The notes under the pieces are model-generated. The model worked only from the letters and a program-made list of their open reading frames with translations, was not told the origin of the DNA and did not search any database. From an uncultured Verrucomicrobia subdivision 3 bacterium (GTDB lineage Bacteria; Verrucomicrobiota; Verrucomicrobiia; Limisphaerales; UBA11358): a stretch of DNA of 40,732 nucleotides. Positions 480-40,652 of this stretch are shown here, one piece after another. The stretch lies in the NCBI GenBank assembly GCA_903917705.1, contig CAIXBQ010000080.1, positions 1-40,732 of the forward strand. Direction: 5' to 3'. Made by a program: the position numbers and the translations under genes. The stretch's first letter is position 1. Every line of letters begins with the position of its first letter.

Positions 480-839
480 ATGTTTTTATACATGGAGCAT
501 GAGAAGATCATAAATCGGTGTCGAAAATCTTTGCTGGCGGGATTCTTTTTAATCGGCATGGTTTTCTTCACCCCGGATGTTTCCAGAGGGATGCGCGGTG
601 GTTTTTTCAGGCTGGCCACCCAGTCAACCTGGAACAAATTCTTAGAACTGCCTGCGGCCTGGTGCAGTTGCAAGATCATTTTATTGAGCCTTGGTTTATT
701 TCTGGTCATCGAGTGTTTGGGAACCATTCTGGCAGTGTTTGGCTTGCGGCGCCTCGCGTGGGTGGCTTATTTGCTTCATGTGCTGCCCAGCGTGTTGTTT
801 CTGATGGGCAGCTATTATGTCATCAAAGCGTTGCTCTGA
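480..839 (+). CDS. Small membrane protein, about three hydrophobic segments
   Basis: A 119-residue protein of unknown function. Hydrophobic stretches lie at about residues 17-32, 64-86 and 91-117, so it is probably an integral inner-membrane protein. An internal ATG at 492 (MEHEK) is an alternative start. Its 3' end overlaps the longest reading of the downstream kinase gene by 23 bases in another frame, which suggests co-transcription. Small multi-span proteins beside sensor kinases sometimes act as sensing or modulating partners, but nothing in this sequence proves that role. I do not recognise the family. Confidence 0.6.
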   Translation: MFLYMEHEKIINRCRKSLLAGFFLIGMVFFTPDVSRGMRGGFFRLATQSTWNKFLELPAAWCSCKIILLSLGLFLVIECLGTILAVFGLRRLAWVAYLLHVLPSVLFLMGSYYVIKALL

Positions 840-2886: not shown

Positions 2887-2887
2887 T

Positions 2888-3580
2888 ATGGAAAAAATTA
2901 ATTCGATAAGGCGCATGGCGGAAACCGGCCAGGCGGTGAACCCCAAAAAAATCTTCGTCGTGGACGATCATCCCATGATGCGGGAAGGCCTGCGCTCCAT
3001 CATCAACCTCGAACCGGATTTAACCGTCTGCGATGAGGCCGACAATGCCCGCAAGGCCATGACCCAGATTGAAAAAACCGGCCCCGACCTGGCACTGGTC
3101 GACATCACCCTCCCGGATAAAAGCGGTCTGGAACTGATCAAAGAATTGAAAGCCCGGTGTCCCGCGCTGCCCATCCTGGCCATCTCCATGCATGATGAAA
3201 GCCTCTATGCCGAGCGCATTTTGCGCGCCGGCGCCAAGGGCTATATCAACAAGCATCAGCCGCCGGCAGAATTGCTCAAGGCCATCCGCCAGGTGCTTGC
3301 CGGACACCTATACATGAGCCAGGAAATATCCGAAACCTTCCTGAAACGTTTTTCCCGCGGGGCATCCTCCAGCCGTTCCCCTCTGGAAATCCTCACCGAC
3401 CGGGAGTTCGAAATCTTTCAGTTGCTCGGCAAGGGCCACTCCGCCAAGGAAATCGCCCAACAACTCCGCCTAAGCGATAAAACCGTGGCCGTCCACAACG
3501 CCAACATCCGGCAAAAACTCAAAATCAAGACGACTTCCCAATTGATACGACTGGCGGTGGAGGCAGATGCCCTAGGTTAA
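2888..3580 (+). CDS. LuxR/NarL-family response regulator
   Basis: A 230-residue two-domain regulator. The receiver domain (about 20-140) has the acidic pair Asp26-Asp27, phosphoacceptor Asp72 in LVDITLPD, switch Ser100 and Lys122 in GYINKHQ. The LuxR-type helix-turn-helix lies at about 166-225, starting at LTDREFEIFQLL and including AKEIAQQLRLSDKTV. Phosphorylation by the adjacent HisKA_3 kinase should activate DNA binding. The ATG at 2888 is chosen because it lies one base after the kinase stop; an ATG at 2834 in the same frame would add 18 unconserved-looking residues inside the kinase gene. The targets are unknown. Confidence 0.95.
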   Translation: MEKINSIRRMAETGQAVNPKKIFVVDDHPMMREGLRSIINLEPDLTVCDEADNARKAMTQIEKTGPDLALVDITLPDKSGLELIKELKARCPALPILAISMHDESLYAERILRAGAKGYINKHQPPAELLKAIRQVLAGHLYMSQEISETFLKRFSRGASSSRSPLEILTDREFEIFQLLGKGHSAKEIAQQLRLSDKTVAVHNANIRQKLKIKTTSQLIRLAVEADALG

Positions 3581-3976
3581 ATCAAATTAGCGTTCAGAAA
3601 ATAATGCCCTTCGCCGGCACCGCCAGCGCAGGCAGCGCTATGGCCAGGCTGGCACGGACCGGACCGGGCAGTGTCCCGCGCGCTGCGGCCAAAATCAGTT
3701 TTGCACCCATGCTGAAGCATTCAAAGTGTTTTGAATGCGTTCTTGAAATGCCCGCCGAAGTGCTGGTTGCGCGCAATGACGAGATTTCTGGATGCAACGC
3801 CTACGCAGAGTATGTGAAATCACAGGACAACTCATATGCGTCAGTGCCGTGGTGAGGTTGGCTCGTCACGTTTTGCGTCTGTCCCAGTGGCTGTATTTTT
3901 ATGCCTGTGCCGGCAAACGGGCACTTGTAAATCTTCGAAGCGGGATTAGGATTGCTTGAAAAGCAGCGGTGATCTA
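3581..3976. other. Intergenic region, no convincing gene
   Basis: Short open frames exist on both strands (for example 3604-3855 plus and 3594-3797 minus), but they overlap each other, lack ribosome binding sites and resemble no family I know. The region holds a GTGCC/GGCAC hairpin at about 3908-3925. It should contain the promoter of the delta-60 repeat gene, but no clear -35/-10 pair stands out. Confidence 0.4.
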
Positions 3977-6880
3977 ATGAAAAATCTTTTATCGGGCATT
4001 TTTTCATTACGGTGTTTGGTTTTCAATTTGCTGGCATCGGGTTTGTTGGTTGGCCAAGAGGCAATCGCCCAGCCCGGGATGTTGGATTTTACCTTCAATG
4101 CGGGCATTACCAATCCGACAGTTTACAATACTTTGGTGCAACCCGACGGGCATGTTTTGGTTCGATATGGCTGGCCAAATTATACCTTGGCCAGATTGGC
4201 GAGTGACGGTTCGCCGGACCTGAGTTTCAGTCCCGGGCTGCCTGCGGGTGCAACCGTCAGTGCCATCGGGACACAACCTGACGGCAAAATTGTTTTAGCC
4301 GGAACTTTCCTCGAAGTGCAGGGCGTGTCGCGTCCTTGCCTGGCGCGTTTGACGGCGGACGGGACTTTGGATGGCGGGTTTGTCCCGCAAATCATGGCCG
4401 CCGGCATTCCGACGCAGCCGACCAATGCGCCGCCAATGCCGTATTCACCCACCAACGGCGTGGGCATGATAATGGTTCAGCCGGACGGAAAGGTTTTGGT
4501 CACCAGCATGTCCTACATGGCGGCAACCAACGGAAGCAATCTGGCAAAGTTGATCCGCTTGAATGCAGACGGTTCGCTCGACAGCGGTTTTGCCATCGTC
4601 ACCAATGCTCCCTACCGCATGGCGTTGCAACCGGATGGCAGGATTTTGATCGAACAAGCCATCTCCTGGAACTATCCCGGCTCGAATATTGTTTACCGTT
4701 TGAATCAGGACGGCACCCGCGACGGCAGCTTTAATCAGGTGAACCTCACGGGCTGGGCTAATGTGCTGCTGCCGCAGACCAACTCGATTTACCTGGGCGG
4801 ATTCATCATCCGCGTGAATGGAGTCAATTCGGGCTGGATGGCGCGCGTCAGCTTAAGCGGACAGCTGGACACGGGTTTCAATTCCACGGCCTATGATTAC
4901 GGGCAGGGAATCATGGATGCCATTCCCCAGCCCGGCGGCAAAGTTCTGATCGGTGGTTCCTTCTGGCAAGTGAATCCAACGTACAAAAGCCTGGCCCGGT
5001 TGAAAGCCGATGGTTCCGTTGATGCCACTTATGTCGCCACCGGTGCGAACAGTTTTATCTGGTCACTGGCTTCACAACCCGACGGAAAAGCCATGGTGGC
5101 CGGCGAATTCACCGCCGTGAACGGCGCCACCACGCCGCCATTGGTGCGATTAAAGGGTGATTCGGATGCCGGGCCTGGCACCGTGGTTTTCGATTCGGCT
5201 GGAACGGAAGTTTATGAAAACGCGGGTTCAATCACGCTTACGGTGGACCGCATTTGGGGGAAGCAAGGCGATATTTCCGTCGACTATCAAACGGTGCCCG
5301 GCTCGGCCGGCGCTGGTTCTGATTTCGTGGCCCAAAGCGGCATTCTGGTCTTTCATGACGGTGAGACCGCCAAGACCATCACGGTGCCGCTCATTGACAA
5401 CAATTACATCAGCGATCTGAAATCGTTTCAGGTGGAATTGAGCAATGCCAGCAGCGGGGCGGGCGTGGGCCCGCAAAGTAATTGTGTCGGGAACATTTTG
5501 AATGTTCACGGCCCGGCCAGCTTTGATCCGGGATTTTCAGTGGTGCCGGGCCTGTTGGACGGAGCTGTCAATGGCGTCGCAATCCAGCCAGATGGCCGTA
5601 TGGTGATAGGCGGATGGTTTCAGCAGGTGGCGGGTGTTCCCAGACGAGGGGTGGCGCGTTTGAATCAGGATGGCACTCTGGACCCGACCTTCAATCCCGG
5701 CGGCGCGCTGGATTACAGCGGCAATGCCGGCTGGCTTAACCAGGTGAAACTCCAAACCAATGGACAAATCCTGATCGCCGGCATCTTCACCAAGTTCAAC
5801 GGCACGAACCAGAATTATCTGGCTCGCCTGAACTCTGACGGTTCGCTGGATGCCAGCTTCAACGACGGCACCGGTCCGCTTGGCGGTGGCAATGTCGTCG
5901 GCGACATTCGCGGCATGGAACTTTTGAACGATGGAAGAATTATTGTGGGTGGTGGGTTTAACTCTTACAACGGCCTTGCTCGCAATGGTCTCGCACGACT
6001 GAACACGAATGGAACGGTTGACGCCACTTATCAACCGGCGGGCGCCGGCATCGTCAACACGTTCGGGCTGCAGGCTGATGGCAAAGTGATTTTCTCCGCC
6101 TTCGCCTCCACGTATGCCTCGCGCATCAACGCCGATGGCACGACGACTCGCACCAATTTCGATGGCACGACCAACATCACCTTTGTCGCAAGCGCAAATA
6201 ATTACATCCGTCAGGTCAGTTCCCTGCCCGACGGCAACACGATGATCGCCGGAAGCTTCTCCGCCATCAACGGACAACCTCGCCATTGTCTCGCCAGATT
6301 GTTCACAGACGGGACGGTTGATTCCACCTTCGTGCCGGATATGAGTCTTTTTCTGAACGCCGCCACGGCTCCCTACATTTACAAATTTGCGGTGCAACCC
6401 GATGGTAAAGTAATCGCCGCGATCAAAACCTACGTCCCTCCCGCCGGGAATTATCTCGTCCGTTTCAATAACGATGGTTCTTTGGACACGGATTTTGAGC
6501 CGGTGCGCTTTGCAATCCCCGCGGGTGACAACGACACGATTTCCGCCATCACGATTCAGGCCGACAATGAAATCATCGTGGCCGGACAATTCCAATCCGT
6601 GAACGGCTTGGCTCGTCCCTATTTGGTTCGACTCAAAGGCGGCGGCAAGAGCGGCAGTCGCCCCTTGATGGTGAACACCTTAAATATCACAAACAGTCGG
6701 TGCGGTTTGTCCTTGGCGGTTTCACCGGCAAAGCCATTCGTGCTGCAAGCTTCAACGAATATGGTGAATTGGACTGATTTATCCACGAACACCGTGCTGA
6801 CCGGCATTTTCAACGTCCTCGACGACCAGATGTCCGTCTCGAACCAGCGTTTCTACCGGATCAAACAACTGGTGCCCTGA
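3977..6880 (+). CDS. Secreted delta-60 repeat protein with central Calx-beta domain
   Basis: A large exported protein of 967 residues. A signal peptide (MKNLLSGIF onward, cleavage near AIAQ) is followed by seven delta-60 repeats, each shaped like QPDGKVLIGG...[11 protein letters not shown] Calx-beta domain follows at about residues 395-510 ([20 protein letters not shown], then ADFVAQSG-like and SFQVELSN motifs), and then seven more delta-60 repeats. Seven repeats per block fits two beta-propellers. The C-terminus ([10 protein letters not shown] to NQRFYRIK) is a type common at the ends of secreted verrucomicrobial proteins. The ATG at 3977 is preferred to an in-frame TTG at 3956 because it starts a normal signal peptide. 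A surface or outer-membrane-associated role is likely; the ligand is unknown. The end overlaps the convergent cupin gene by 28 bases. Confidence 0.9.
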
Positions 6881-8589: not shown

Positions 8590-10023
8590 TTATTTTACGC
8601 TGATCACGGAGCTATCAACGATTGCCCTTTCCGGCGAAGACTTCACATATTCCACGACAACTTTTTCCGGCGCGACGGTGACTTGCACATGGCCCGCATT
8701 GCCAAGAAATTTGCCCTGCTTGTAGCCGTAATTTTCCAAGTCGCGAATACGGTCGTTGCCGGCAAAGCTCGGCTGCGGAACCATCAGGTAAAGAATCCCG
8801 TCCAGTTCCTGCCGGGCATAGAAATTATCGTGTGCCTTGAACACCGCCGTGACGTGATGGCGCAGGAGCAATTGATGAATTGTCAGCGGCCAACCGGGCC
8901 GATGGGAGGCAAAGCCGTCGGTGCCGTCCAGATTCTTGCCGCCCCATTCGTTAAATCTGGCAATCTCCACCCCGCCGCGCGAGGCTTGGTCGCCGCAAAG
9001 AAGATTGTGCAAAAAGACGAACTTAAATTTTGCCTGGGCCCCCGCCAGCGTCCGGGTGAGCCAGTCATATTGTGTGCGACCGAGCGACCATGCCCAGCCA
9101 TCACCGCCGCCGCGCTGGCGCAACGAATAGCGATACGGGTCAAGCACCACGAAAAGCGCATCACCCCACTCCCACGCATAATAGTTTTCGAGCAGGCCAC
9201 CGGCTGGTTCGGGGGTGGCATCGCCGGTGTAAAAACCGTCCGGAACAGGATTGGGGAAGTAACGTTTGCGCAGCAGATTCGACCAGGCGGCCAAATTGTC
9301 GGGCGAACCATCTTCGTAGCGGCTGCTCTCGCCGTCGTGCACGCCGAGCGCGAGAAAGAGCGGGATGGAAGACCCGATTTGTCCGAGATAAAACCGCTGC
9401 GCCAGATATTGTCTTGCCGCTTCGTCGCGCGTGGCGTGTTTGTCGGTCATGAATAGGTTGCCGAGATCAATGTGAAAATCGGGGTGTTCAGCCCGGATGT
9501 TGGCGAGCGATTGTTCATACACTTCCGCGCTGGTATGTTCATCCAGATGCACATCCGCCGTCATCGTGAAGGTGAAGGGGCTGCCCGGCGGACGCGCCGT
9601 ATGGAAAGAATATTCCGGGCTGGTGGTGAACGGCGTGGAGCCGGCGAGCCGCGAATGGAGCTGGTAGAAATGTTTCGAATTGGCTTGGAGCGGTGTGATG
9701 ACGAATTCAGCCGGCACGCCGACATGGAACGGACGGACGGGTGTGTGGTTGGTGCAAGCACCGGACCGGCTTCCGTAGGCCACAAAACCTTCCAGGTTTT
9801 TATATGCCAACACGCTCAAGGTGACGGAATTGTTTTCCGGCCGGGCGAGAATCAAATCATACGGATGAGCCGGCACGGCGACGTTAAAGAAATTGGTTCC
9901 GGTTTGCGACCGGCGTCCGTGAGGCATGCCGACTTCATTTGCCGGTGCGGCCAGCACGGACATGGAAATCAGCCAGAGAAGCGCTTGGTAACAGGTCGGT
10001 GTTTTGCGGCTGACGGCGCTCAC
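8590..10023 (-). CDS. Exported metallophosphoesterase-like protein with degenerate active site
   Basis: A 477-residue exported protein with an N-terminal hydrophobic signal, a fibronectin-like domain of purple-acid-phosphatase type at about 45-145, and a calcineurin-like phosphoesterase fold at about 150-420. It is a paralog of the product of the gene at 11809-13365, alignable over most of its length (for example NEWGGKN against YEWGGRN, and RPGWPLTIHQL against RPGWELPVHQL). Asp157-Val-His159, His339 and His398 are kept. Three usual ligands are changed: GD is Gly188-Asn189, GNH is Gly227-Val228-His229, and GHxH ends in Asn400. A binuclear metal centre is therefore probably impaired. It is the last gene of a four-gene unit and may bind rather than hydrolyse its substrate. 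Confidence 0.85.
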   Translation of the reverse strand: MSAVSRKTPTCYQALLWLISMSVLAAPANEVGMPHGRRSQTGTNFFNVAVPAHPYDLILARPENNSVTLSVLAYKNLEGFVAYGSRSGACTNHTPVRPFHVGVPAEFVITPLQANSKHFYQLHSRLAGSTPFTTSPEYSFHTARPPGSPFTFTMTADVHLDEHTSAEVYEQSLANIRAEHPDFHIDLGNLFMTDKHATRDEAARQYLAQRFYLGQIGSSIPLFLALGVHDGESSRYEDGSPDNLAAWSNLLRKRYFPNPVPDGFYTGDATPEPAGGLLENYYAWEWGDALFVVLDPYRYSLRQRGGGDGWAWSLGRTQYDWLTRTLAGAQAKFKFVFLHNLLCGDQASRGGVEIARFNEWGGKNLDGTDGFASHRPGWPLTIHQLLLRHHVTAVFKAHDNFYARQELDGILYLMVPQPSFAGNDRIRDLENYGYKQGKFLGNAGHVQVTVAPEKVVVEYVKSSPERAIVDSSVISVK

Positions 10024-10047
10024 GGGATGATGATTAGAGGGATTGTT

Positions 10048-11745
10048 TCACGGCAAGGCGACGCCGACGCGATAGAACCGTTGCGCGCTGATGATGTTGG
10101 TGTCGCTCAATGAATCCACACCGCCGCTGCCGGTGATGTTGGTTTGGGCGGGCAGGGCGTTCCACGCGCCCGCGGTCAGATTGGTTTTCGAATAGAGCGA
10201 GTATTTCCGGCTGGCCGAGGAAAGATAACACAACTTGAAGCCGGCGGTGTTGGAGAGGCTTTGAATGCGGAAATAGGAAGACGCATTGGTTGGATTCGTG
10301 TCGGCGAGGTATTCGGCGTAGTTGCTTGCGCCATCATGATCCGGATCGCCGTCGGCGGCGGAAGTGGCATTGGTGGCGGTGCCGCTGCCGCCGAAGTATT
10401 GCCGCCGCCAGCCGTCGGGTATGCCATCGCCGACATGATCCACGCTGCTGTAATTTCCGGCGCGCACGAGGCGGACGAAATTAAGCCCGCGAATCGCGTC
10501 GCCTTGGGGGCCGAACGAGTAGCCGGAATAAATCACGCCGCTGTTGGTGACATAGTAGACCGTGGCGTAGCCGAAGGGGGGGCCGGTCTTGGGGTCGCTG
10601 CGCTGGGCGCCCGCGCCGTGAACGTCAACCCACTTGGGATTGGAGGATGGCCAGCCGAGCGCCCGGCCAAAGGCGATGTAGTCCGCCTCCCCGGCGCCGG
10701 TGTTGTTGAGGCTGTAAGTCCAGTGCGTGGAGGAAGTCCAATAATAGCCCCAGTCGGGCTGCCCCGCTTCGTTGGTGATGGCGGTGCAGGTGAAGTAGTT
10801 GGTGTCAATGGCGGGCAGACCATTGTAGTCGGGCGCATTCGAGTAATTGACGAGGCTTTGAAGTTCCTTCACGTTCGGCATCCGCCAGTCGCCGTGACCG
10901 AGATAATTGGAGGCGTTCTTCGACTGCACCCAAGCCAGGGCGTTTGACCAGGTCATCGGCGTGCCGCCGTCGCCCCGGCTCCACAGCAGTCCGGTGCCCA
11001 GGTCGGTGATGGTGCCATCGTTGTTATTGGTGAAAGCGTTGATTCCGTAGCCGGTTGGCCCGCGGACAAGCTGGACGTAAGATTTGAACAGCAGGCCGCT
11101 TTTCGAATCCGTCAGGTCATAGCCTTTGATCCGGCCGTCAGCGAAGTTCACGCCGAAGTTTTTCTGATAGCCGGATTCGCTCGGGTTGAAGATGAAGGTC
11201 GTTGCCGACCAATACTGGGAGTTTTTGAAGGCGGTCTGGGAATAGCCAAAGTTAAAATAGTTGGTGTCGATGAAGGGGGTGAGCACGGAAGCATTCGTGC
11301 CTTGATAGCTGCTGGGGTCGGTGCCCACGCATTCAAATAGCGAATACAATTCCTTGATTGTCGGCAAACGCCAGTCGCTGAACCCGCCATAACTGGCGGC
11401 GTTCAATGTTGCGGGCCAGCTCGTGGCGGCAACCCAGGACATCTTGTCGCTATCCGTCGGATGAGCGAGGCTGGTGTTTGGGCCGCGCATCCAGGTCAGG
11501 CCGGTGTTTTTATCGAAAACCGTCTTGTTTTCCCAGCTCAATGTGTAGCCGGACTGGTTGCCATAGAACTGCGCGTCCTGACCACAGTAGGGCTGCCCCG
11601 AGGCCGGCGCGGTGATGCCGCCGCTGGTGTTGTAGCAATTGGTCTGCATGGTATCCACGACGAACCAAGACGCGGCGGCGTTCACACTGATGGCTGGGGA
11701 AACAACCGCCACCGGCGCAAATAAGAATTTATACCACCACTTCAT
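10048..11745 (-). CDS. Secreted DUF1566 (Lcl C-terminal-like) protein
   Basis: A 565-residue exported protein with signal peptide (cleavage near SVNAAA). It contains two DUF1566/Lcl-type domains in tandem, at about 75-235 and 240-440. Each has a diagnostic core (GGFSDWRLPTIKELYSLF in the first, GHGDWRMPNVKELQSLV in the second) and a later YWSAT or YWTSS segment. DUF1566 domains have a C-type-lectin-like character and occur in surface-exposed proteins. A short Asp-rich, calcium-binding-like linker (DGIPDGW to DPDHDGASNYAEYLADTNP) leads to a C-terminal beta domain ending in AQRFYRVG, related to that of the delta-60 protein. The gene sits between two metallophosphoesterase paralogs, 24 bp from one and 63 bp from the other, so it is probably co-transcribed and may serve for surface binding. 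Confidence 0.87.
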   Translation of the reverse strand: MKWWYKFLFAPVAVVSPAISVNAAASWFVVDTMQTNCYNTSGGITAPASGQPYCGQDAQFYGNQSGYTLSWENKTVFDKNTGLTWMRGPNTSLAHPTDSDKMSWVAATSWPATLNAASYGGFSDWRLPTIKELYSLFECVGTDPSSYQGTNASVLTPFIDTNYFNFGYSQTAFKNSQYWSATTFIFNPSESGYQKNFGVNFADGRIKGYDLTDSKSGLLFKSYVQLVRGPTGYGINAFTNNNDGTITDLGTGLLWSRGDGGTPMTWSNALAWVQSKNASNYLGHGDWRMPNVKELQSLVNYSNAPDYNGLPAIDTNYFTCTAITNEAGQPDWGYYWTSSTHWTYSLNNTGAGEADYIAFGRALGWPSSNPKWVDVHGAGAQRSDPKTGPPFGYATVYYVTNSGVIYSGYSFGPQGDAIRGLNFVRLVRAGNYSSVDHVGDGIPDGWRRQYFGGSGTATNATSAADGDPDHDGASNYAEYLADTNPTNASSYFRIQSLSNTAGFKLCYLSSASRKYSLYSKTNLTAGAWNALPAQTNITGSGGVDSLSDTNIISAQRFYRVGVALP

Positions 11746-11808
11746 GGGCGCATTTTATGCCGGTCAACCTTAAGAAGGCGTGAAGGTGAAACGTGTTTTG
11801 CAAACCCT

Positions 11809-13365
11809 TCAGGCATGCAGTCCCTTGGCCTTGACGGTGTAGTTGTGGGCGATGTTGCCGGTTTTGTTTTGCGGCGTCTCGTCCTTCGGCAAAAAGCTGC
11901 GAAGATATTCCACTTTCACCTGTTCGGGCGAAACGGTGACGCGCAAATGGCCGGAGTTCGGCAGCTTCACGCCGGATTGGTAGCGATCCTCGTTGTAAGT
12001 CATGTAGCCGTGATCGGCGGGCATCGGCACTTCCTGATAAATGATGCCGTCGCGCTCCTGTTTGCAGAAAAGATGATCGTGGCCTTGGAAGAAAATCGTG
12101 ACGCCGTGCTTCACCATGAGCTGATGCACAGGCAATTCCCAGCCGGGCCGTTTCTGCGCGAACTCCCAATCGCCGCGCTTGTTCCGGCCGCCCCACTCAT
12201 ACAGGTCGCACTCGTCTACCCCGCCCCGGCCCGAGCCAAGCACATGGTGGGCGAAGACGAATTTGTATTTCGCCCGGCTCTGTTCAAGCGTGCGCTTGAA
12301 CCACTGATATTGCGCGTCGCCGAGCGTGAGCCCCCACCAATCGCGCTGCTTGCCCGCGCCTTGGCCTCTCTGGCCGCCCGCATTCTCCTCGCGAAAACCG
12401 CTGTCCACTTGCACGGGTGCGTGCCAGTAGTTGTCCAGAATCACAAACAGCGCATCGCCCCACGTCCACGCGCAATAATCTTTCCGCAGGCCGATGGCGG
12501 GCAGCGGGGTGTTGTCGCCGGAATAAAAACTGTCCGGTGCCGGCGTGGGATAGAATTGGTTGCGCGCGTTTTGGGCATGAACCGCGACGTTGTGCCGCTC
12601 GTCGGCCTGATTGAAATTGAACAGCGAGGCCTGCTCGTGATTTCCGTTCAGCAAAAACACCGGCGCGGACTGCGCGACAAGGCCGAGGAACGGACGTTGT
12701 AAAGTGTAGCGCTCGGCAACTGAATCGAAAGTAACCTCGCGCACCGGCGCGACGCTGAAATCGTCGCCCATGCAGATGTAAAAATCCGGCTGGTCAGCGG
12801 CAGCATTGAGCAAGGTGCGGGCATACAAATTCGGCTCGCTCATCTGCGGCCGCTCGGGATGAGAGTCGCCCTGAATCGCAAACGTGAACGAGTTGCCCGT
12901 CGCGCGCTGCGTGTGAAAGCGGCATTCCAGTCGCGCGGTGAAAGCGGTTTCGCCCGTTTTGCGAAATTGTAGCCGGTAGAAGTATTGCGTGTTCGGTTGC
13001 AACTTGTCGAAAACAGTTTCGACGGGTTTGTTTGCCGCCACCGTGAGGACGCCGGTCTTGCTGGTGTAATTTCCCGGCGCGGTTCCGTATTCAAGAAATC
13101 CTTCAATCGGTTCTGTTACAAGCAAATTAACTGTCACCGACTGGTCACTCACGCGGCCGAGCACCAGCGAGAGCCAGCTGAACGTCGCCAACTCCGGGGG
13201 CAGCACATAATCTTGCGCACCACGGTGACCCCGTCCACCGCCGCCTTGGCCGCCACGTTTCCGTTGCCCCGGTCCGTTATTCTGTGCGAAGGCCGGCAGT
13301 TGAAACCAGGCGAGCGCCGAGGCAAGAGCGGCGAGGAATTTTCTCCGGTTGGTGAGCAGGCTCAT
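11809..13365 (-). CDS. Tat-exported metallophosphoesterase with intact active site
   Basis: A 518-residue phosphoesterase. The N-terminus carries a twin-arginine signal (NRRKFLAALASALAWF), so the protein should be exported folded, presumably with metal already bound. A Gly/Arg-rich linker (about 30-50) and a fibronectin-like N-domain (about 60-155) precede the calcineurin-like domain. All usual motifs are present: GDSH (Asp167, His169), MGDD (Asp201), GNHE (Asn242, His243), FAHH (His373/His374) and GHDH (His429, His431). It should hydrolyse phosphomonoesters or phosphodiesters in the periplasm or outside the cell; the substrate cannot be read from sequence. It is second in a four-gene minus-strand unit, 24 bp after the LTxxQ-like gene, and its degenerate paralog is the last gene. 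Confidence 0.93.
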   Translation of the reverse strand: MSLLTNRRKFLAALASALAWFQLPAFAQNNGPGQRKRGGQGGGGRGHRGAQDYVLPPELATFSWLSLVLGRVSDQSVTVNLLVTEPIEGFLEYGTAPGNYTSKTGVLTVAANKPVETVFDKLQPNTQYFYRLQFRKTGETAFTARLECRFHTQRATGNSFTFAIQGDSHPERPQMSEPNLYARTLLNAAADQPDFYICMGDDFSVAPVREVTFDSVAERYTLQRPFLGLVAQSAPVFLLNGNHEQASLFNFNQADERHNVAVHAQNARNQFYPTPAPDSFYSGDNTPLPAIGLRKDYCAWTWGDALFVILDNYWHAPVQVDSGFREENAGGQRGQGAGKQRDWWGLTLGDAQYQWFKRTLEQSRAKYKFVFAHHVLGSGRGGVDECDLYEWGGRNKRGDWEFAQKRPGWELPVHQLMVKHGVTIFFQGHDHLFCKQERDGIIYQEVPMPADHGYMTYNEDRYQSGVKLPNSGHLRVTVSPEQVKVEYLRSFLPKDETPQNKTGNIAHNYTVKAKGLHA

Positions 13366-13389
13366 ATGTTGTCGATTATCTTTAGCACT

Positions 13390-14661
13390 TCAGTCGGCTG
13401 CGCTAAACAGATAATCCGTCTTCGGAATAGTCGGCGCCGTGATGGGATCGGCGTAAACAAAGGGACTTTTGGCGGAGAATCCTTCGATGCCCCGAAGTTT
13501 CTTCAACGCAGAGCGCTGCTCGGACGTTAATGTCTTGTTAACCTCGGCAAAATGAGTCGCGTAGTAGAAAGACAGTTCGCCGTCGAGTTCCCCGTAATGC
13601 CTGCAGAGTTTCAGAACTTTTTCTTTGCTGGCTGAACCGCCTGACATGAATTGCCGCAGTTCCATCGCCACCGCGCGGCGGGTGCTGACGATGTCCTGCA
13701 AATCTCTTCGCTGCAATTCGACCAGGCTGGTCACCTGTTCGCGCTGCGTCGGGTTGAGCGCGGCGAGAAACGCCTCACCGCTGTCGCCCGTCAGCGCCGT
13801 GCTGATGGAATAATTCTTTTGATGCACCGCCGGCGCATCTTTCATGTAAAACGATCCGAAGTAAGTGCCGTGGCCTTCCGGGCAAAAATACGTGTCAGAC
13901 TCGACCGAGCCGGCATACCAGCTGAAAAATTCGCTCGCGTAGGTCATCATCGCCACATGAACGGGGTGCGACACGGTGCGCTTGTCGAACGCCTCCGGCA
14001 CGTCCGGCCAGGTGCGCGAGTCGCCGAACTTAAGCTTGGTAAACTCCGCTTTTTGTGCGTCGGTCAGCGAACTCAAAATCTTCCCATAAACTTCCGCGCG
14101 TTGAAATGCCAGGTCACCGCTTAACTCAAAAATGCCGGAGGTGTATTTCGTGACAGCCGCGCGATTCAAGCTTTGGCTGCCGGTGGGAAAGTCGCCCGCG
14201 AGATTGCGACAAAATGCCTGGATGAGAGGAAGCCGTTTTAGCGCCAGATCATGAATTCGCGTTGCCTGCGATTTGCCGAGTTCAACCAACTGCGCCTTTT
14301 GTTCATCATTCAGGATGCGCAGAGTGTTGTTGGCGATGCGCGTGAGAAAATCCGTGTTGTGCCCCATGGCCGCGCCGTCAACGTCCCGCATGTATTGAAA
14401 ACCGAAAAAGTCGGACACTTTTCCCGGTGGCAAAAACGTATCGCAGTTGAAATCACCGGAGAGAAATGCCAGACCGTCAAAGGCGATGGTGTTGAGCTGC
14501 GCTCGGTCGGATGTCGCCTGCTCAATAGAATATCGGTGGTGCTTCTCTGGTTGTGACCGGTTCGCGATGTGTTCGGTTTTTTTCTGCGGGTTGTTGTCTT
14601 GCGCCATTGCCTGCATTCCCAATCCGGCAATGGCCAGCGTAAGGAGGGTGGATATTTTCAC
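13390..14661 (-). CDS. Secreted LTxxQ-like protein with internal duplication
   Basis: A 423-residue exported protein (signal peptide to about AMAQ20), starting at a GTG. The mature part is two related halves of about 180 residues. CDTFLPPGKVSDFFGFQYMRD (73-93, quoted in part) matches DTYFCPEGHGTYFGSFYMKD (256-275). LNDEQKAQLVEL (117-128) matches LNPTQREQVTSL (302-313). LTDAQKAEFTKLK (199-211) matches LTSEQRSALKKLR (378-390). The LTxxQ sequences resemble the helical motif of the Spy/CpxP periplasmic chaperones, but these halves are larger and carry an extra aromatic, Cys/His-containing segment. A metal or haem role is possible and unproven. It is the first gene of the four-gene unit; its function is unknown. 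Confidence 0.82.
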   Translation of the reverse strand: MKISTLLTLAIAGLGMQAMAQDNNPQKKTEHIANRSQPEKHHRYSIEQATSDRAQLNTIAFDGLAFLSGDFNCDTFLPPGKVSDFFGFQYMRDVDGAAMGHNTDFLTRIANNTLRILNDEQKAQLVELGKSQATRIHDLALKRLPLIQAFCRNLAGDFPTGSQSLNRAAVTKYTSGIFELSGDLAFQRAEVYGKILSSLTDAQKAEFTKLKFGDSRTWPDVPEAFDKRTVSHPVHVAMMTYASEFFSWYAGSVESDTYFCPEGHGTYFGSFYMKDAPAVHQKNYSISTALTGDSGEAFLAALNPTQREQVTSLVELQRRDLQDIVSTRRAVAMELRQFMSGGSASKEKVLKLCRHYGELDGELSFYYATHFAEVNKTLTSEQRSALKKLRGIEGFSAKSPFVYADPITAPTIPKTDYLFSAAD

Positions 14662-15051
14662 GCCTTAAACCTAACAAAACAACCTTAAGGGAACATTAAG
14701 ATGCAATATGGTTTTCAAGGCGGTGAATTCTGATAGGCGTTCGGTGGAGTTGCTGTGTCAGCTCGGCTGTCACGAGGAAATGGCATCCTTTTTCAAAGCA
14801 TTCCCACTGACATTCCCGCCTCCTGCTTCGACAAAACGGCGCAATTTCCCCAATTGTTTCCGGTGTTGTTTAAACCTTAGGCCATCGCCGGCATCGAAAG
14901 CAGGGCAGCAACTTTTCTTCACCTCGCCAGTTTAGTGGATGGCTGAAAATCTTGGGGTGGCTTAAACTCATTTTATTATCCATGGAAAATGTCACGAATC
15001 GCGGCCCATCACTTGAAGCATCCCTGAACAGACAGGCTCCAGTTTAATGCT
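14662..15051. other. Divergent intergenic region
   Basis: This 390-bp gap separates the minus-strand four-gene unit from the plus-strand gene at 15052 and should hold both promoters. A small inverted repeat, CTTAA and TTAAG flanking GGGAACA (about 14684-14700), lies just upstream of the minus-strand GTG start and could be a regulator site. An open frame at 14708-14935 has no ribosome binding site and an unconvincing composition, so I do not call it a gene. Confidence 0.4.
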
Positions 15052-17607
15052 ATGAAGGCAAACTCCTGGACTCTGGCTAAATGCCTGACAATCATATTGT
15101 GCGGCTGGGGATGTTTCTCCGTGCTTCCGACTTGCGCCATGGACACAAACGGTTTGCAAGGGACGGATCTGAATCCGCCCGCAGTCGCGCAAACCTACAC
15201 GTTGAATTCTGACCGGGGAGGTTGGACTGCCAGCATCAATCCGGACGGTTCCATCAACCATCTGGCGATGACGTTTGGCGGCCGGCGCATTGATGTCCCC
15301 TGGCGTAATGCCAACGAGAACTTCGGCCCCGCCTGGAAGTTGCCGGTTGCGCGGGAATCGGATGGCAATGGATTGGTCGCGTTGAAGAAGACGGATGGCG
15401 ACGGCTTGGTTTTTGAGGGCCGCGCCGGCGACCAGGTTTATTCGCTCGCCTACCGGGATGAGCAGGGCGATTTGACGATTGAAGCGGGAATCCGGAACGA
15501 GAGCGACAAGCCACTGGTGGCTGATCCTTATGTCCGTTTGGCGCTGGGGATTGATCACGAGATGAATGATCCCAAGCGCTATTTCTCCATGTTTTTCCCC
15601 AGTCTGCTGCGGTGCGAGAAGACACATCTCTGGGGCTATTTCGAGACGCCGAACGGGCAGGTGCTGGCGCTCGCATCGAAAGACCCGGTGGCCTCATGGG
15701 CGTTGGATTACATGGGCAACGGGCATCGCATTGCCACCGCGAACTTGGATCTGCTGCATGCGACTCCGTTGCCAGCGCGCCATCCGCAGGATCAAACCGC
15801 GCTGGCGCCGCACGCTTCGCGCAGTTGGCGGATTTCACTGCGGGCGGTGAACAATCTTGACGGGGTTATCCCGGCGGTTGCGGCGATGAGCGGCGCACCG
15901 GCCATCGCCTTGGAGCGCACCACGGTCGCGCCAGGGGAGCCGGTGGACGTGGCGTTGTATTCCCCCAGCACGCCGGCGGCGGAGGTCGCGGCGGTAGATG
16001 AGCAGGGGAGTGCCATTCCCATCGGTCAGGCAATCACTGAAGCCGGGGTGCGTCGTTACCAATTTCCCGCTCCGCAAACGCCCGGCCTGATCACGCTCCG
16101 CGCGATGGCTGGCGGCAAGCAATGCGAGGCCGTCGTCTATGTCCGGAAACCGTGGGGTTGGTATCTGCAGCAGGCGCGTTCCGAGGCTTTGCGAATCCAG
16201 CAGAAGCCGGAGATGCACCGCGAGGGTTGGCTGGGCTTCTTCAGCGCGTATTGGGCGCAGATCTATTTTCCGGATCCCGCGCGGCTGGCGGGGACGGAAC
16301 AGAAGTTCAAGGAGTTCTTTGCCTTGATGGTTGATCCGGCGACCGGCGATTTCTATAAGAACAAACCCACGTGGCCCGACCGCCCACAGAACAGCTCATG
16401 GATGCTGGGTTTGCTGGTGGCGCGTTATGCCGCCACCCATCAGCCGGTAGACCTTGAGCAGGCGGCAAAATGGGCGGACTTGTTCATCGCCAAATTCCAA
16501 AAAGCGGACGGCGCGTATTCCCACGGGAAAAACAGCTATGGCGCGCTGACCCTGGGATCGGAGTTCCTCTCCCAATTGGTTTGGTTCGAGCGTCCCCTGG
16601 CGGCCACGGATGTGCGCTGGAAGGAGCGTTATGAGCGGCACACGCAATCCATTGCCCGCTCCGTTGCGAACCTGGAAAAGGTAAAGGACCTGGGCGCGAC
16701 CGAAGGCGACCAGACCTACGAGGATAACCAGGCCGGCAGCGCGTGGTCGCTCCTCGCTTTGCACGCGCTCATGGCCGATGACAGCGCCCAGCGAGACCGG
16801 TATCTGGCCGGAAGTATCGAGGTTCAGCGGCGGCATGAATGTTTGACGCAGGCGCTCATCCCGGATGGCCGGATGCGCGGCGGCACCTTGCGATGGTGGG
16901 AAGCACAGTATGACATCCTCACCACCGGCCCCAATTTCATGGATTCGCCGCACGGTTGGACCATGCGCAGTCAGTTCGGTGCTCTCTACCTGTATCTCCT
17001 GACCGGCCAGGAACGGTATCTGGACCTGGTCTTCAACGCGATGGGAGCTTGTGCGCAAGCGATTGATCTCCCGTCGGGAAAGCTGCGCTGGGCCTTCGTT
17101 CCGGATCCTTACGTCAAGATCGGGCAGTTTGTTCCTGATCCGGCAATGCCAGACTTGGGCCAACATGTTCCCGCCATCATCGGCGAACAATGGCTCCCGA
17201 TGATCAGCGATTGGTGGCGCGTCCCCCCGGGTCAGGTGGCGGGCTCTCGCAAGCCCGGCTGGAGCTGCGACAACGATGTCCATGAACATTTTCGAATCAT
17301 GGGGGAAGAATTTATTCCCAATGCTTTTGTGCTGGAGCGTGCGGATGGAACCTTGCGGGCTTGGAATTGTCTGGTGGAACGAAAAGACGGACTGATTCTG
17401 GTAAAGCCGGCTGAAGCGGCGGTCTCGCGGGTCCATTTCAATCTGCGCACCGCCAGCCGGGTTGAAGTCCAATTCGCGCCCGAAACGGTTCGTGCCAAGT
17501 TGGAGCCGGGGATGAAATGGGTGCTGTCGAAAGCGCAGCCGGCGGCACCGGCTATATATTTCACTTCCAATCACGAACAGAACAACGCTCTTCGACCCAC
17601 CCCGTGA
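15052..17607 (+). CDS. Secreted protein with Ig-like and probable alpha/alpha-barrel domain
   Basis: An 851-residue exported protein with signal peptide (first 30 residues). The N-terminal third (about 45-270) is beta-rich and resembles the sandwich domains that precede some glycosidase catalytic barrels. A short Ig-like segment (about 280-365, VAPGEPVDVALYSP) follows. The rest (about 370-770) is helical and rich in aromatic residues, with recurring LLVARYAATHQP, SLLALHALMADD and LYLYLLTGQERYLD segments, as in six-hairpin (alpha/alpha)6 glycosidases and polysaccharide lyases. A carbohydrate-active function is therefore likely, but I cannot place it in a family or name catalytic residues with confidence. 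It stands alone, with the repeat array downstream. Confidence 0.75.
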   Translation: MKANSWTLAKCLTIILCGWGCFSVLPTCAMDTNGLQGTDLNPPAVAQTYTLNSDRGGWTASINPDGSINHLAMTFGGRRIDVPWRNANENFGPAWKLPVARESDGNGLVALKKTDGDGLVFEGRAGDQVYSLAYRDEQGDLTIEAGIRNESDKPLVADPYVRLALGIDHEMNDPKRYFSMFFPSLLRCEKTHLWGYFETPNGQVLALASKDPVASWALDYMGNGHRIATANLDLLHATPLPARHPQDQTALAPHASRSWRISLRAVNNLDGVIPAVAAMSGAPAIALERTTVAPGEPVDVALYSPSTPAAEVAAVDEQGSAIPIGQAITEAGVRRYQFPAPQTPGLITLRAMAGGKQCEAVVYVRKPWGWYLQQARSEALRIQQKPEMHREGWLGFFSAYWAQIYFPDPARLAGTEQKFKEFFALMVDPATGDFYKNKPTWPDRPQNSSWMLGLLVARYAATHQPVDLEQAAKWADLFIAKFQKADGAYSHGKNSYGALTLGSEFLSQLVWFERPLAATDVRWKERYERHTQSIARSVANLEKVKDLGATEGDQTYEDNQAGSAWSLLALHALMADDSAQRDRYLAGSIEVQRRHECLTQALIPDGRMRGGTLRWWEAQYDILTTGPNFMDSPHGWTMRSQFGALYLYLLTGQERYLDLVFNAMGACAQAIDLPSGKLRWAFVPDPYVKIGQFVPDPAMPDLGQHVPAIIGEQWLPMISDWWRVPPGQVAGSRKPGWSCDNDVHEHFRIMGEEFIPNAFVLERADGTLRAWNCLVERKDGLILVKPAEAAVSRVHFNLRTASRVEVQFAPETVRAKLEPGMKWVLSKAQPAAPAIYFTSNHEQNNALRPTP

Positions 17608-17833
17608 CTTGACACCGATCGGTATTCTTCCATGAAGATTGCCATGAATCGCCCCGCATCATTTGCCATAGGGGCGACGTGGCTGCATTGCCTCATTTTT
17701 TGAGCTGACCGTAAGGCCAGCCCTGCCGGCTGAAACACCGTTTTGGTCAGAAACCAGCATTTTGGCTCTTCCAGCCAACCTTCAAACTGTCCTGTTTTTG
17801 GAAAATTTGTGGAAAGCGTTGTGAATTAGGCAG
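17608..17833. other. Spacer before the tandem repeat array
   Basis: No gene is visible. A weak hairpin, GCCCC and GGGGC with a 15-nt loop at about 17651-17675, is followed some 20 bases later by a run of six T and may help end transcription of the upstream gene. It is not a strong terminator. Confidence 0.3.
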
Positions 17834-18232
17834 ATTTCCATAACTCACCCCACCAAAGAGGGTCCGGCAAGCCCTCTTTCCAGTCGGAAATCGTAAATTT
17901 CCGATCAGCAAACGTAAATTTCCTATCAGCAATCGGCAATTTCCGTACAGCGAACGTAAATTTCCGTACGGCGAACGACGATTTCCTATCAGCAACCGAC
18001 GATTTCCGTACAGCAATCGTCGTTTGCCGTATAGCGAACGCCGTCCGCTGATACTCCCGCGACGATTTCCATACAGCGAATGATGATTTCCATACGGCGG
18101 ACAGCGCTCGCCATACCTCGGACACCAGTTTCCTATCAGCGAACGGGGATTTCCGTAACCCGAACATCACTTGCCGTATCTCGAACGGCGTCCGCTGATA
18201 CTCCCTTGGCGATTTCCATACAGCGGATGGCG
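17834..18232. repeat. 21-bp tandem repeat array (17 clear units plus two decayed units)
   Basis: Seventeen consecutive units of exactly 21 bp run from 17876 to 18232. Two more positions in the same register (17834 and 17855) look like decayed units. A typical unit starts ATTTCC, continues with a core such as GTACAGCGAACG and ends in three variable bases. Unit 8 (18044) and unit 15 (18191) share TCCGCTGATACTCCC, and units 7/14 and 9/16 also match, giving a partial higher-order period of 147 bp. Since 21 is divisible by three, frames stay open across the array on both strands; the minus-strand frame at 17826-18170 would encode heptapeptides such as FAVRKSS and FADRKFT. No start signal supports translation. 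Confidence 0.92.
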
Positions 18233-18293
18233 TTGTTCAAAGCGCCCGCCGCGGGAATGGTCCGACTTCTTTTCTGCAGGCACAAAAAAGGGT

Positions 18294-18309
18294 CGCCATG
18301 ATCATGGCG
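18294..18309. promoter_or_regulatory. Perfect 16-bp palindrome upstream of thiG
   Basis: CGCCATGATCATGGCG is perfectly self-complementary and ends 53 bases before the thiG start. Its length and location fit the operator of a dimeric regulator, though a chance palindrome or recombination site cannot be excluded. I looked for a TPP riboswitch (conserved CTGAGA and ACCTGA-type elements) in 18233-18362 and saw none. Confidence 0.45.
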
Positions 18310-18362
18310 GCTGAAAATCTTCCCGCCTCGACAATTCGCCGCAATTTTCTAAATTATCCCGA

Positions 18363-19151
18363 ATGTCGTTTGTTCATAAACCTTTGATCATTGCCGGCCG
18401 CGAGTTCGGTTCGCGGCTGATCCTCGGCACGGGAAAATTCCCGTCGCCGGAAGCCATGCGCGATGCGCTGGCCGCCAGCGGCACGGAAATGGTCACCGTC
18501 GCCCTGCGCCGCGCGGATTTGAGCGGGAAGAAAGATCCGTTCGCGAATATCCTCGAATTCATTGACCCGAAGAAATATCTGCTCCTGCCCAATACCAGCG
18601 GCGCGATGAACGCCGAGGAAGCCGTCCGCCTCGCGCGCCTCGCCGTCGCCGCCGGTCTGCCGAAATGGGTGAAACTTGAAATTCATCCCGACCCCCGCTA
18701 TCTCTTGCCCGATCCGATTGAGACGTTCAAGGCGGCGGAGATTCTGGTGAAAGAGGGGTTCACCGTGCTGCCCTATATCAACGCCGATCCGGTGCTGGCG
18801 AAGCGGTTGCAGGAAGTGGGCTGCGCGACGGTGATGCCGCTGGGTTCGCCCATCGGCTCGAATCGCGGCATTCAGACACGGGACCAGATCCGCATCATCA
18901 TCGAGCAGGCGACGGTCCCAGTGGTCGTGGATGCGGGCATCGGCGCGCCGAGCCACGCGGCGGAGGCGATGGAACTGGGCGCGGACGCCGTGCTGGTGAA
19001 CACGGCCGTGGCCGTGGCGAACGACCCGAACCGCATGGGTATCGCGTTCAAGTTGGCTGTGGAAGCCGGCCGTGCCGCATTTGAAATCGGCTTGGGCGCG
19101 CCGAGCGAAACGGCGACCGCCACGAGTCCGTTGACCGCATTTTTGGATTAG
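18363..19151 (+). CDS. thiG: Thiazole synthase ThiG
   Basis: A 262-residue TIM-barrel enzyme of thiamine biosynthesis. It joins 1-deoxy-D-xylulose 5-phosphate, dehydroglycine and the ThiS thiocarboxylate to form the thiazole phosphate. Recognition is secure: [18 protein letters not shown] at the N-terminus, Lys104 in [10 protein letters not shown] as the Schiff-base lysine, the phosphate-binding run [14 protein letters not shown], and [20 protein letters not shown] followed by [10 protein letters not shown]. Length is normal. No thiS, thiH/thiO or thiF lies in this window, so the partners must be elsewhere. The heptose kinase gene follows after 92 bp on the same strand. Confidence 0.97.
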
Positions 19152-19176
19152 TCTCTGTAACAAACAAAATACCGCC

Positions 19177-19233
19177 ACACGAATTAATCTGAATGGAACA
19201 ATTTGATTTAACGAATATTTGTGAAATTCGTGT
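19177..19233. repeat. Inverted repeat between thiG and the heptose kinase gene
   Basis: ACACGAATT at 19177-19185 is exactly complementary to AATTCGTGT at 19225-19233, with an AT-rich 39-nt loop. It ends about 10 bases before the start codon at 19244, so pairing could affect translation. Its AT-rich composition differs from the flanking genes. It resembles short dispersed repeats seen ahead of genes in related genomes, which is a recollection and not a search result. Confidence 0.5.
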
Positions 19234-19243
19234 CTAACAAAAT

Positions 19244-20257
19244 ATGAACGGCAAAACTCTATCCGCTGCCCGCGCCCGCCAGATTCTGGCCGCCGCGCAA
19301 AAGACCCGCGTCCTTGTCGTTGGCGATGTGATGCTGGACCAGTTCATCTGGGGCGGGGTGTCGCGCATATCGCCGGAGGCGCCGGTGCCGGTGGTGGATT
19401 TTGCCCGCGAGAGCTTCATGCCCGGCGGCGCGGCGAACGTGGCGCGCAACCTGGTTTGTCTCAAGACACCGGCGGAACTATTCGGAGCCATTGGCAATGA
19501 CGACGCGGCGCGCAAGTTACAGAGGCTGCTGGGTGAGCAAAATATCGGCTGCACCGGGCTGGTGAGGAATTCCACGCGGCATACGAGCATCAAGACGCGC
19601 ATCGTCGCCCACCAGCAACAAGTGGTGCGCATTGATCGCGAGACTCGCGGCGCCCTGGACGCCAGGACCACGGCGAGGTTGCTGGCGGAATTCCGGACCA
19701 AACTCCCCAGGGCCGCTGCCGTCATCGTCGGCGACTACGGCAAGGGTGTGGTGACGCAGCCACTGCTGAACGAGATCAAATCGTTTTGTCACGAGCGCGG
19801 CGTCTGGCTGAGCCTCGACCCGAAGCCGGTGCATCACCTGGATTTGAGCAATCTATCGCTCATCACGCCGAACCGGAAGGAGGCATTTGAACTTGCGGAT
19901 CTGCCGGATGAAACCAGGAACGCCAATCCGTTCGCGGACAAAAACCTGATGCTTGTCGCGGAACGGCTGCTGAACGAATTGCGCCCGGCGCTGTTGCTCA
20001 TCACGCTGGGCGAGTTTGGTATGCTGCTGTGCCAGCGCGGGCAGAAGCCGTTTCACATCCCCACGGTGGCGCAGGAGGTGTTCGATGTTTCCGGCGCGGG
20101 CGACACAGTCATCGCGACGTTCACCCTGGCGGTTGCGGCGGGAGCTTCGCCCATTGAAGCGGCGATATTGTCCAATCACGCGGCCGGCATCGTGGTTGGC
20201 AAGGTCGGCACGGCGACGACCTCGCCGGAGGAACTGGCGAAAAGTTTTCCAAAATAA
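19244..20257 (+). CDS. rfaE1: D-glycero-beta-D-manno-heptose-7-phosphate kinase (HldE N-domain/RfaE1 type)
   Basis: A 337-residue PfkB-family sugar kinase. It should phosphorylate heptose 7-phosphate at C1 on the way to ADP-heptose for lipopolysaccharide inner core. Visible signatures are VLVVGDVMLDQFIWG, the substrate-site VSRISPEAPVPV typical of RfaE/HldE, PGGAANVARNL, the central GDYGKGVV, and the PfkB C-terminal signature DVSGAGDTVIATF with the catalytic Asp. The length corresponds to the kinase half only; the nucleotidyltransferase half found in E. coli HldE is absent, so a separate adenylyltransferase should exist. It implies a Gram-negative envelope containing heptose. The ATG at 19244 is the natural start; panB follows after 60 bp. 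Confidence 0.93.
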   Translation: MNGKTLSAARARQILAAAQKTRVLVVGDVMLDQFIWGGVSRISPEAPVPVVDFARESFMPGGAANVARNLVCLKTPAELFGAIGNDDAARKLQRLLGEQNIGCTGLVRNSTRHTSIKTRIVAHQQQVVRIDRETRGALDARTTARLLAEFRTKLPRAAAVIVGDYGKGVVTQPLLNEIKSFCHERGVWLSLDPKPVHHLDLSNLSLITPNRKEAFELADLPDETRNANPFADKNLMLVAERLLNELRPALLLITLGEFGMLLCQRGQKPFHIPTVAQEVFDVSGAGDTVIATFTLAVAAGASPIEAAILSNHAAGIVVGKVGTATTSPEELAKSFPK

Positions 20258-26472: not shown

Positions 26473-26624
26473 GTATTGCGCGCCAAATGCAGGGACTGGT
26501 CGCGGCAACTTTAGATAGCAAATCTCGCGCCGACCAGCCAGACGTTTTTTGGATGTCCTGTCAAACTTGCCGGGCTGGAAAGTTGTTTTTGTTAAAATGC
26601 TGACTTTGACCTATCCTCCGCGCG

Positions 26625-40200: not shown

Positions 40201-40652
40201 GTTTTTAGGGTGCTTCCGGAATGAGAATGACGGTCCGGTTGCGGGAATAGTAACAGCCTCCTGAGGTATTTCTTGAGGGGATTCATTTTTACGGAATGCG
40301 AATACCACCTCCCTTGTCCCTCCTGGAAAATTTATCATGTCTGATAACATGTCGGCTATGTCGTAGATGCGAGGTTTGATACCGGGATGGATGGTCGCCT
40401 GCGGAACGAATTAGTAATGTTATCTGCTCGGTCCCATCGAGCACGGTTTCGTTGCAAGAATGTGATAACGGTCCCTTAATGTTTTCAGCTATTGGAGTTG
40501 TCGTGGCTTTCGAGGGGGCTGTCGATTCGGTGAGTTAAATTGGATTTTGACCGGGAAGTTGCGAATTGCCTTGAAAACATTTTTGCAAGTTGTTCTAGTC
40601 TCCTGAGTCATAATAAACTTTCATAAATAGACGGGGTCTGTATCATGTCGGC
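40201..40652. other. Intergenic region at the right edge
   Basis: No gene is visible. It must hold the promoter of the minus-strand phosphoesterase gene. The last 100 bases before the edge gene are AT-rich and could contain the promoter or end of an insertion sequence. A 9-bp direct repeat, CATGTCGGC at 40348-40356 and 40644-40652, brackets the region and may be coincidental. Confidence 0.4.

Follow-up and report, generated by a model that had tools for sequence, protein, structure and literature searches.

An LTxxQ-PEBP-metallophosphoesterase gene module recurring in many phyla and its modified form in an uncultured Verrucomicrobia subdivision 3 bacterium

The stretch of DNA analysed here (the window) is the entire 40,732-nt contig CAIXBQ010000080.1 (C80), part of a draft genome (3.76 Mb, 66% complete) from an uncultured Verrucomicrobia subdivision 3 bacterium (GCA_903917705.1). 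It carries a minus-strand run of four genes that is a modified form, without a PEBP gene and with an added DUF1566 gene, of a module whose recurring core is LTxxQ - PEBP - MPE - MPE, MPE standing for metallophosphoesterase. This core, the pairing of two MPE types (A and B), the loss of metal ligands in a single clade, the repeats of the LTxxQ protein, the fusions, and the kinase genes nearby in other phyla were all observed. As a whole, the set was tentatively read as a phosphoesterase module of the periplasm or cell surface that includes a CpxP-like sensor, in which catalysis, complex formation, sensing, location and substrate are what we infer. The four open reading frames (ORFs), at 14661-13390, 13365-11809, 11745-10048 and 10023-8590 with gaps of 24, 63 and 24 bp, had been proposed in an earlier sequence-only reading and were confirmed, as was the assignment of two DUF1566 domains to the third protein. 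Their products are as follows.

13390..14661, minus strand: duplicated LTxxQ exported protein of 423 amino acids (aa) (PF07813, Pfam LTXXQ, 28.5 bits, cut-off 24.3)
11809..13365, minus strand: MPE-A, a metallophosphoesterase with a Tat-type N-terminus (NRRKFL) and a full metal ligand set (Pfam Metallophos, 33.1 bits, cut-off 21.5; tree clade A)
10048..11745, minus strand: exported protein with two Lcl_C (DUF1566) domains (Pfam Lcl_C, 155 bits in two stretches, cut-off 34.9)
8590..10023, minus strand: MPE-B, a degenerate paralog of MPE-A with the predicted fold kept (40% identity to MPE-A; no Pfam match)

The signal peptides of all four N-termini and the Tat motif were judged by eye. A promoter and terminator scan of the locus performed no better than on shuffled sequence, so that co-transcription of the four genes is suggested by their spacing and conservation only.

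An alignment scan with LTxxQ, in which loci were chosen regardless of MPE, yielded 75 loci with record titles of many phyla, including that of the isolate Sapientia aquatica. The gene caller takes the longest ORFs; an LTxxQ gene was called in 72 of these loci and in 3 it was not, and the MPE-A gene of L054 was missed. A run was defined as genes on the same strand with gaps of no more than 1 kb, and the runs around LTxxQ contained another module gene in 53/72 loci, an MPE in 32, a PEBP gene in 28, a DUF1566 domain in 16, two or more MPEs in 17, and two MPEs plus DUF1566 in 6; L100, L101 and L136, apparently near-identical copies, are counted separately in all figures over 72. Going by record titles, the module occurs in a wide range of bacterial groups and also in genomes attributed to archaea, with binning errors possible among the metagenome-assembled genomes (MAGs), chiefly in candidate phyla radiation and archaeal bins, and with many contigs cut. 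The nearest LTxxQ relative among the 75 loci (84%) belongs to L071, a MAG titled Verrucomicrobia subdivision 3, which has the order LTxxQ-PEBP-MPE-A-MPE-B. In L077, a Verrucomicrobia MAG, the genes for LTxxQ, MPE-A, MPE-B and DUF1566 stand in a row, with a 35-bp gap followed by overlaps of a few bases, as placed by mechanically called starts. Thus, the proposal that the four genes belong together is borne out by co-location in loci selected by LTxxQ alone and by these two related genomes, but the four genes as such are not the basic unit: DUF1566 is an optional part, as are FGE-like proteins, SGL, ASST (in 22/75 loci) and sulfatase (in 7/75). YHYH proteins, considered as core members, were rejected, being called in 1/75 LTxxQ loci by a hidden Markov model (HMM) built from only five seeds.

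No PEBP gene was present in the run of the window locus. A second locus of the same genome (L164, contig C6, 1-16440) has no LTxxQ; it carries genes for FGE-PEBP and FGE-ASST, more ASST genes and another copy of MPE-A, which shares 84% identity with that of the window. In a survey of the class at E ≤ 1e-10, MPE relatives were detected in 35/384 genomes and LTxxQ in 5/384, and in all five of the latter, the window genome included, an MPE hit lay on the LTxxQ contig. At the same threshold LTxxQ was not found in 10 other genomes of the genus, which indicates that the gene set is accessory. That unrelated exported genes came together by chance could be argued from these 10 genomes and from the incompleteness of the draft; however, these families stand side by side in many phyla, L077 has the identical set, and some of the parts are fused, so that such a grouping is very improbable.

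Among 72,556 plasmid records searched, a single one contained an LTxxQ relative, and this record was also the only one to contain an MPE-A relative: the closed 375-kb circle of Ca. Chlorohelix allophototropha (L163, NZ_CP128401.1, 256197-285330), termed a chromid in PMC10972752. The genes for a response regulator, a histidine kinase, LTxxQ, PEBP, MPE and MPE form one run there, at 11579-19372, and since the replicon is closed, binning error is ruled out as the cause of its module. Both MPEs possess full ligands and begin with TRRKFV and a lipobox-like stretch. The 29-kb stretch contains no ASST, FGE, SGL, sulfatase or DUF1566; of the module it has only LTxxQ, PEBP, the two MPEs and the two-component system.

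Fusions were seen among the loci for LTxxQ-PEBP (15 loci), PEBP-MPE (L095), MPE-MPE (L073), DUF1566-FGE (12 loci) and FGE-ASST (8 loci). Three genomes of the window's order, G012, G035 and G068, encode a single chain of MPE-MPE-DUF1566x2-FGE with an ASST domain further on (the G035 chain being cut by contig ends), so that one polypeptide brings together the domains for which the window uses three of its four genes. Giant polypeptides were encoded by L062 (7536-19901, at least 4122 aa), L150 (1063-11703, 3546 aa) and L151 (3-6398, at least 2132 aa), each possessing two MPE, two DUF1566, FGE and ASST domains, and two of the three also SGL and a first ASST. Chains of this kind, linking MPE-MPE-Lcl_C-FGE-SGL-ASST, favour the main rival to a sensor-bearing module, namely a surface machine that would remodel a sulfated or phosphorylated extracellular polymer, with Lcl_C/FGE lectin-like domains and ASST/SGL propellers binding or transferring, MPEs and sulfatases trimming, and LTxxQ acting as a scaffold or chaperone instead of a sensor. 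The DUF1566-FGE and FGE-ASST fusions, the frequencies of ASST and sulfatase given above, and a protein of the Chitinophagaceae MAG L130 that bears a Por sorting tail point the same way, as does the Legionella DUF1566 protein Lcl, which binds sulphated glycosaminoglycans according to PMC11162425. The window protein shares the Lcl_C domain with Lcl but has two of them and no collagen repeats were seen in it. The polymer machine is nevertheless rather unlikely, as its ASST, FGE, SGL, sulfatase and Lcl_C parts are absent from the Chlorohelix stretch and the kinases near LTxxQ are left unexplained.

The phosphoesterase pair was described in the sequence-only reading as one enzyme with an intact active site and one degenerate paralog, and both descriptions agree with the metal ligands. 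MPE-A holds the complete dinuclear ligand set of calcineurin-like metallophosphoesterases (PF00149), D-x-H, GD, GNH, H and GHxH, as located by ligand scoring; comparison with MPE-A together with the same scoring located three losses in MPE-B.

12859..12867, minus strand: MPE-A motif I ligands D167 and H169
12763..12765, minus strand: MPE-A bridging ligand D201 (GDDF)
12637..12642, minus strand: MPE-A N242 and H243 (GNHE)
12247..12249, minus strand: MPE-A H373
12073..12081, minus strand: MPE-A H429 and H431 (GHDH)
9457..9459, minus strand: MPE-B lost ligand, bridging Asp replaced by Asn189
9340..9342, minus strand: MPE-B lost ligand, Asn of GNH replaced by Val228
8824..8826, minus strand: MPE-B lost ligand, last His of GHxH replaced by Asn400

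A tree, rooted at midpoint only, was built from the 80 of 87 MPE domains left after removing duplicates, with 20 regions, one each from 20 of the 35 MPE-positive genomes, mixed with the 75 LTxxQ-chosen loci. Clade A comprised 29/80 domains. In the 79 domains scored (that of L132 had no C-terminal motifs), all ligands were present in 73 and three were lost in 6. These six, including window MPE-B, form one clade with support of 100/100 inside the B side of the tree, and every scored B-side domain outside it kept all ligands. The dN/dS of window MPE-B was 0.15 (NG86) and 0.12 (YN00) against L071 and 0.15 (NG86) against L052, which shows purifying selection. Judged by its ligands, MPE-B is probably catalytically inactive here. 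An active enzyme working with an inactive paralog, as first suggested, stays the best-supported guess for the window, but one limited to a clade of six, the other B domains being intact.

The Tat motif on only one paralog had been taken to suggest cofactor loading in the cytoplasm. A loose Tat regular expression matched 13/25 non-fused MPE-A and 0/47 non-fused MPE-B proteins, although the printed N-termini show L058 and L060 to have been missed and cast doubt on at least one match (L063). In the loci covered, it is mostly MPE-A of Verrucomicrobia that has the motif; MPE-A relatives of several other phyla lack it, and both Chlorohelix MPEs carry it. Tat export was therefore rejected as a defining trait of MPE-A, and the argument for cofactor loading is weak.

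The two-domain fold of purple acid phosphatases (PAPs) was recognized, with the charge-transfer Tyr of PAP motif II absent: in the alignment, the family profile (GDDFS) has Ser at the position where human PAP (GDNFY) has its Tyr. This Ser, the occurrence of A/B paralogs in pairs, and the bacterial origin set the family apart from plant-type PAPs (1kbp, 4dsy). It also differs from PhoD (2yeq) in scoring 18.9 bits with the Pfam model (PF09423, cut-off 27), and from Plasmodium GAP50 (3tgh), which is eukaryotic and aligns over the phosphoesterase domain only. Ordinary phosphate scavenging, by PhoD/PAP-like phosphatases accompanied by passenger genes, is quite improbable, since A/B pairs, a degenerate B clade, and LTxxQ and PEBP partners recurring across phyla would be unexpected, and the PhoD score speaks against it as well. 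Apart from this pair, the window encodes at 37624-40350 a 908-aa protein with a Phosphoesterase domain (PF04185), of a different Pfam family, and a YncE-like propeller match.

The two-fold repeat of the LTxxQ protein, which had been noticed from the letters, is genuine. Alignment of its halves with hhalign gave a probability of 98.2% (E 3e-14, 153 columns), as compared to no more than 3% for 60 column shuffles and 1% for a reversed half. The best stretch of the Pfam match lies in the second half, no single stretch exceeding the cut-off alone. Repeat boundaries came from this alignment, and motifs from conservation in a set of 78 distinct domains drawn from the loci analysed.

14020..14496, minus strand: LTxxQ repeat 1, residues 56-214, with the PPG motif and LxxxQ motifs L117/Q121 and L199/Q203
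13483..13950, minus strand: LTxxQ repeat 2, residues 238-393, with the YFCPE motif and LxxxQ motifs L302/Q306 and L378/Q382
13876..13890, minus strand: YFCPE motif, residues 258-262, each residue invariant in 78/78 domains

All four LxxxQ motifs kept their Gln in 77 or 78 of the 78 domains, while Leu199 is variable, with Phe or Met in its place in 30. PPG (residues 78-80) was invariant, Cys260 of YFCPE was the only invariant Cys, and His101 was present in 77 domains, the remaining one having a gap. An AlphaFold model (pTM 0.79) was uncertain precisely in the YFCPE loop, and its comparison with the PDB gave no convincing match. The family is large, with 3882 proteins at E ≤ 0.001 among 7996 candidates scored.

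Spy and CpxP work as dimers. Two LTXXQ motifs are called a canonical feature of CpxP in PMC5063474. Put together, these points make the window protein look like a single-chain dimer of the CpxP/Spy type. Like the CpxAR-CpxP and ZraSR-ZraP modules, with ZraP the LTxxQ protein of the latter, the module has an exported LTxxQ protein above the Pfam cut-off, with a kinase and a response regulator adjoining in Chlorohelix and some other loci. It differs in that the window protein, with 423 aa, is duplicated and bears four LxxxQ motifs, not two in one small domain, in the invariant YFCPE and PPG segments, in the linkage to PEBP and paired phosphoesterases, and in the lack of an adjoining kinase in the window. 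A Spy-type chaperone alone would need no invariant PPG, YFCPE or His101, and hence their conservation points to a putative metal, haem or redox site.

Metal sensors are found among LTxxQ relatives. In a system for metal or redox sensing and resistance, of the ZraP/CnrX type, Cys260, Glu262 and perhaps His101 would bind metal or haem, and the MPEs would be incidental metalloproteins. Cys260 and Glu262 (each 78/78) and His101 agree with this, with no second invariant Cys. Opposed to it are the replacement of His264 by Gln in 25/78 domains, a Metal_resist Pfam score of 14 bits against a cut-off of 29.2, and 45 neighbour clusters, not all annotated, among which no metal efflux family was evident (ABC genes, MacB-like, occurred in five loci); this explanation is unlikely.

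In 20/72 LTxxQ loci a histidine kinase gene lay within 4 kb on the same strand, and any regulator (kinase, response regulator or extracytoplasmic function sigma factor) in 27/72. By comparison, 5 of 189 genes at least 6 kb away matched regulator HMMs and 5 more an ABC-transporter HMM, a contrast inflated by the HMMs having been built from LTxxQ neighbourhoods. The kinase type varies, LytS/LytTR under Bacteroidota titles and HisKA/OmpR under several others. Weighing against a sensor in the present organism, nearly all Verrucomicrobia-titled LTxxQ loci, like the window, have no kinase gene on the LTxxQ strand within 4 kb. The earlier idea of LTxxQ as sensor or chaperone remains the best-supported guess on account of the kinases in other phyla, but with this gap in the Verrucomicrobia. 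The window has an overlapping gene pair for a PAS-rich histidine kinase and a LuxR-type response regulator at 817-3580, distant from the four genes, and at 22835-26508 a hybrid histidine kinase (three receiver stretches and Hpt) adjoining a 397-aa protein (two receiver stretches and Hpt).

In the proposed mechanism, MPE-A, which like MPE-B is of the PAP/PhoD fold, would hydrolyse a phosphoester beyond the cytoplasmic membrane. MPE-B of the window would be a pseudoenzyme that binds the substrate or MPE-A, its relatives mostly keeping a full active site. The double DUF1566 protein would link the set to a surface polymer such as a glycan, and PEBP and DUF1566 proteins would bind substrate or polymer; the binding of a surface phosphoester by the DUF1566 protein or MPE-B, part of the original hypothesis, may occur. 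The LTxxQ protein would sense the state of the envelope or substrate and signal to a histidine kinase.

Other genes of the window include that at 3956-6880, whose 974-aa product has a Calx-beta domain in addition to 12 DUF5122 beta-propeller stretches, and one at 15052-17607, divergent from the four-gene run, for an 851-aa protein with zero Pfam matches at E ≤ 0.1. Downstream alcohol dehydrogenase and cupin genes were rejected as module members, having no relatives among the genes called in the 20 regions with MPE hits.

Literature on the combination, its single parts and their background was searched, with subscription journals only partly covered, and no paper describing the module was found. 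While its parts are known families, the module itself is apparently new in print, as are the A/B pair and a duplicated LTxxQ protein bearing YFCPE. It is possible, though we hold it with reserve, that these make up an envelope signalling-plus-phosphoesterase system that gene transfer has carried into many phyla and perhaps into both prokaryotic domains, whose sensor would be a covalent CpxP-like dimer with a new YFCPE site and whose effectors would be a phosphoesterase pair, once turned into enzyme and pseudoenzyme and elsewhere fused with lectin-like and propeller domains into a giant chain. A version that includes both MPEs is present in an isolate, Sapientia aquatica SA-152, which makes genetic tests of parts feasible. 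Sharp questions are offered by the ligand of the invariant YFCPE Cys and by a natural phosphoesterase-pseudophosphoesterase pair as a complex. Recurrence in many phyla, in a closed replicon as well as draft genomes, together with the fusions, makes it very probable that the module has one definite job, which none of the literature found here names.

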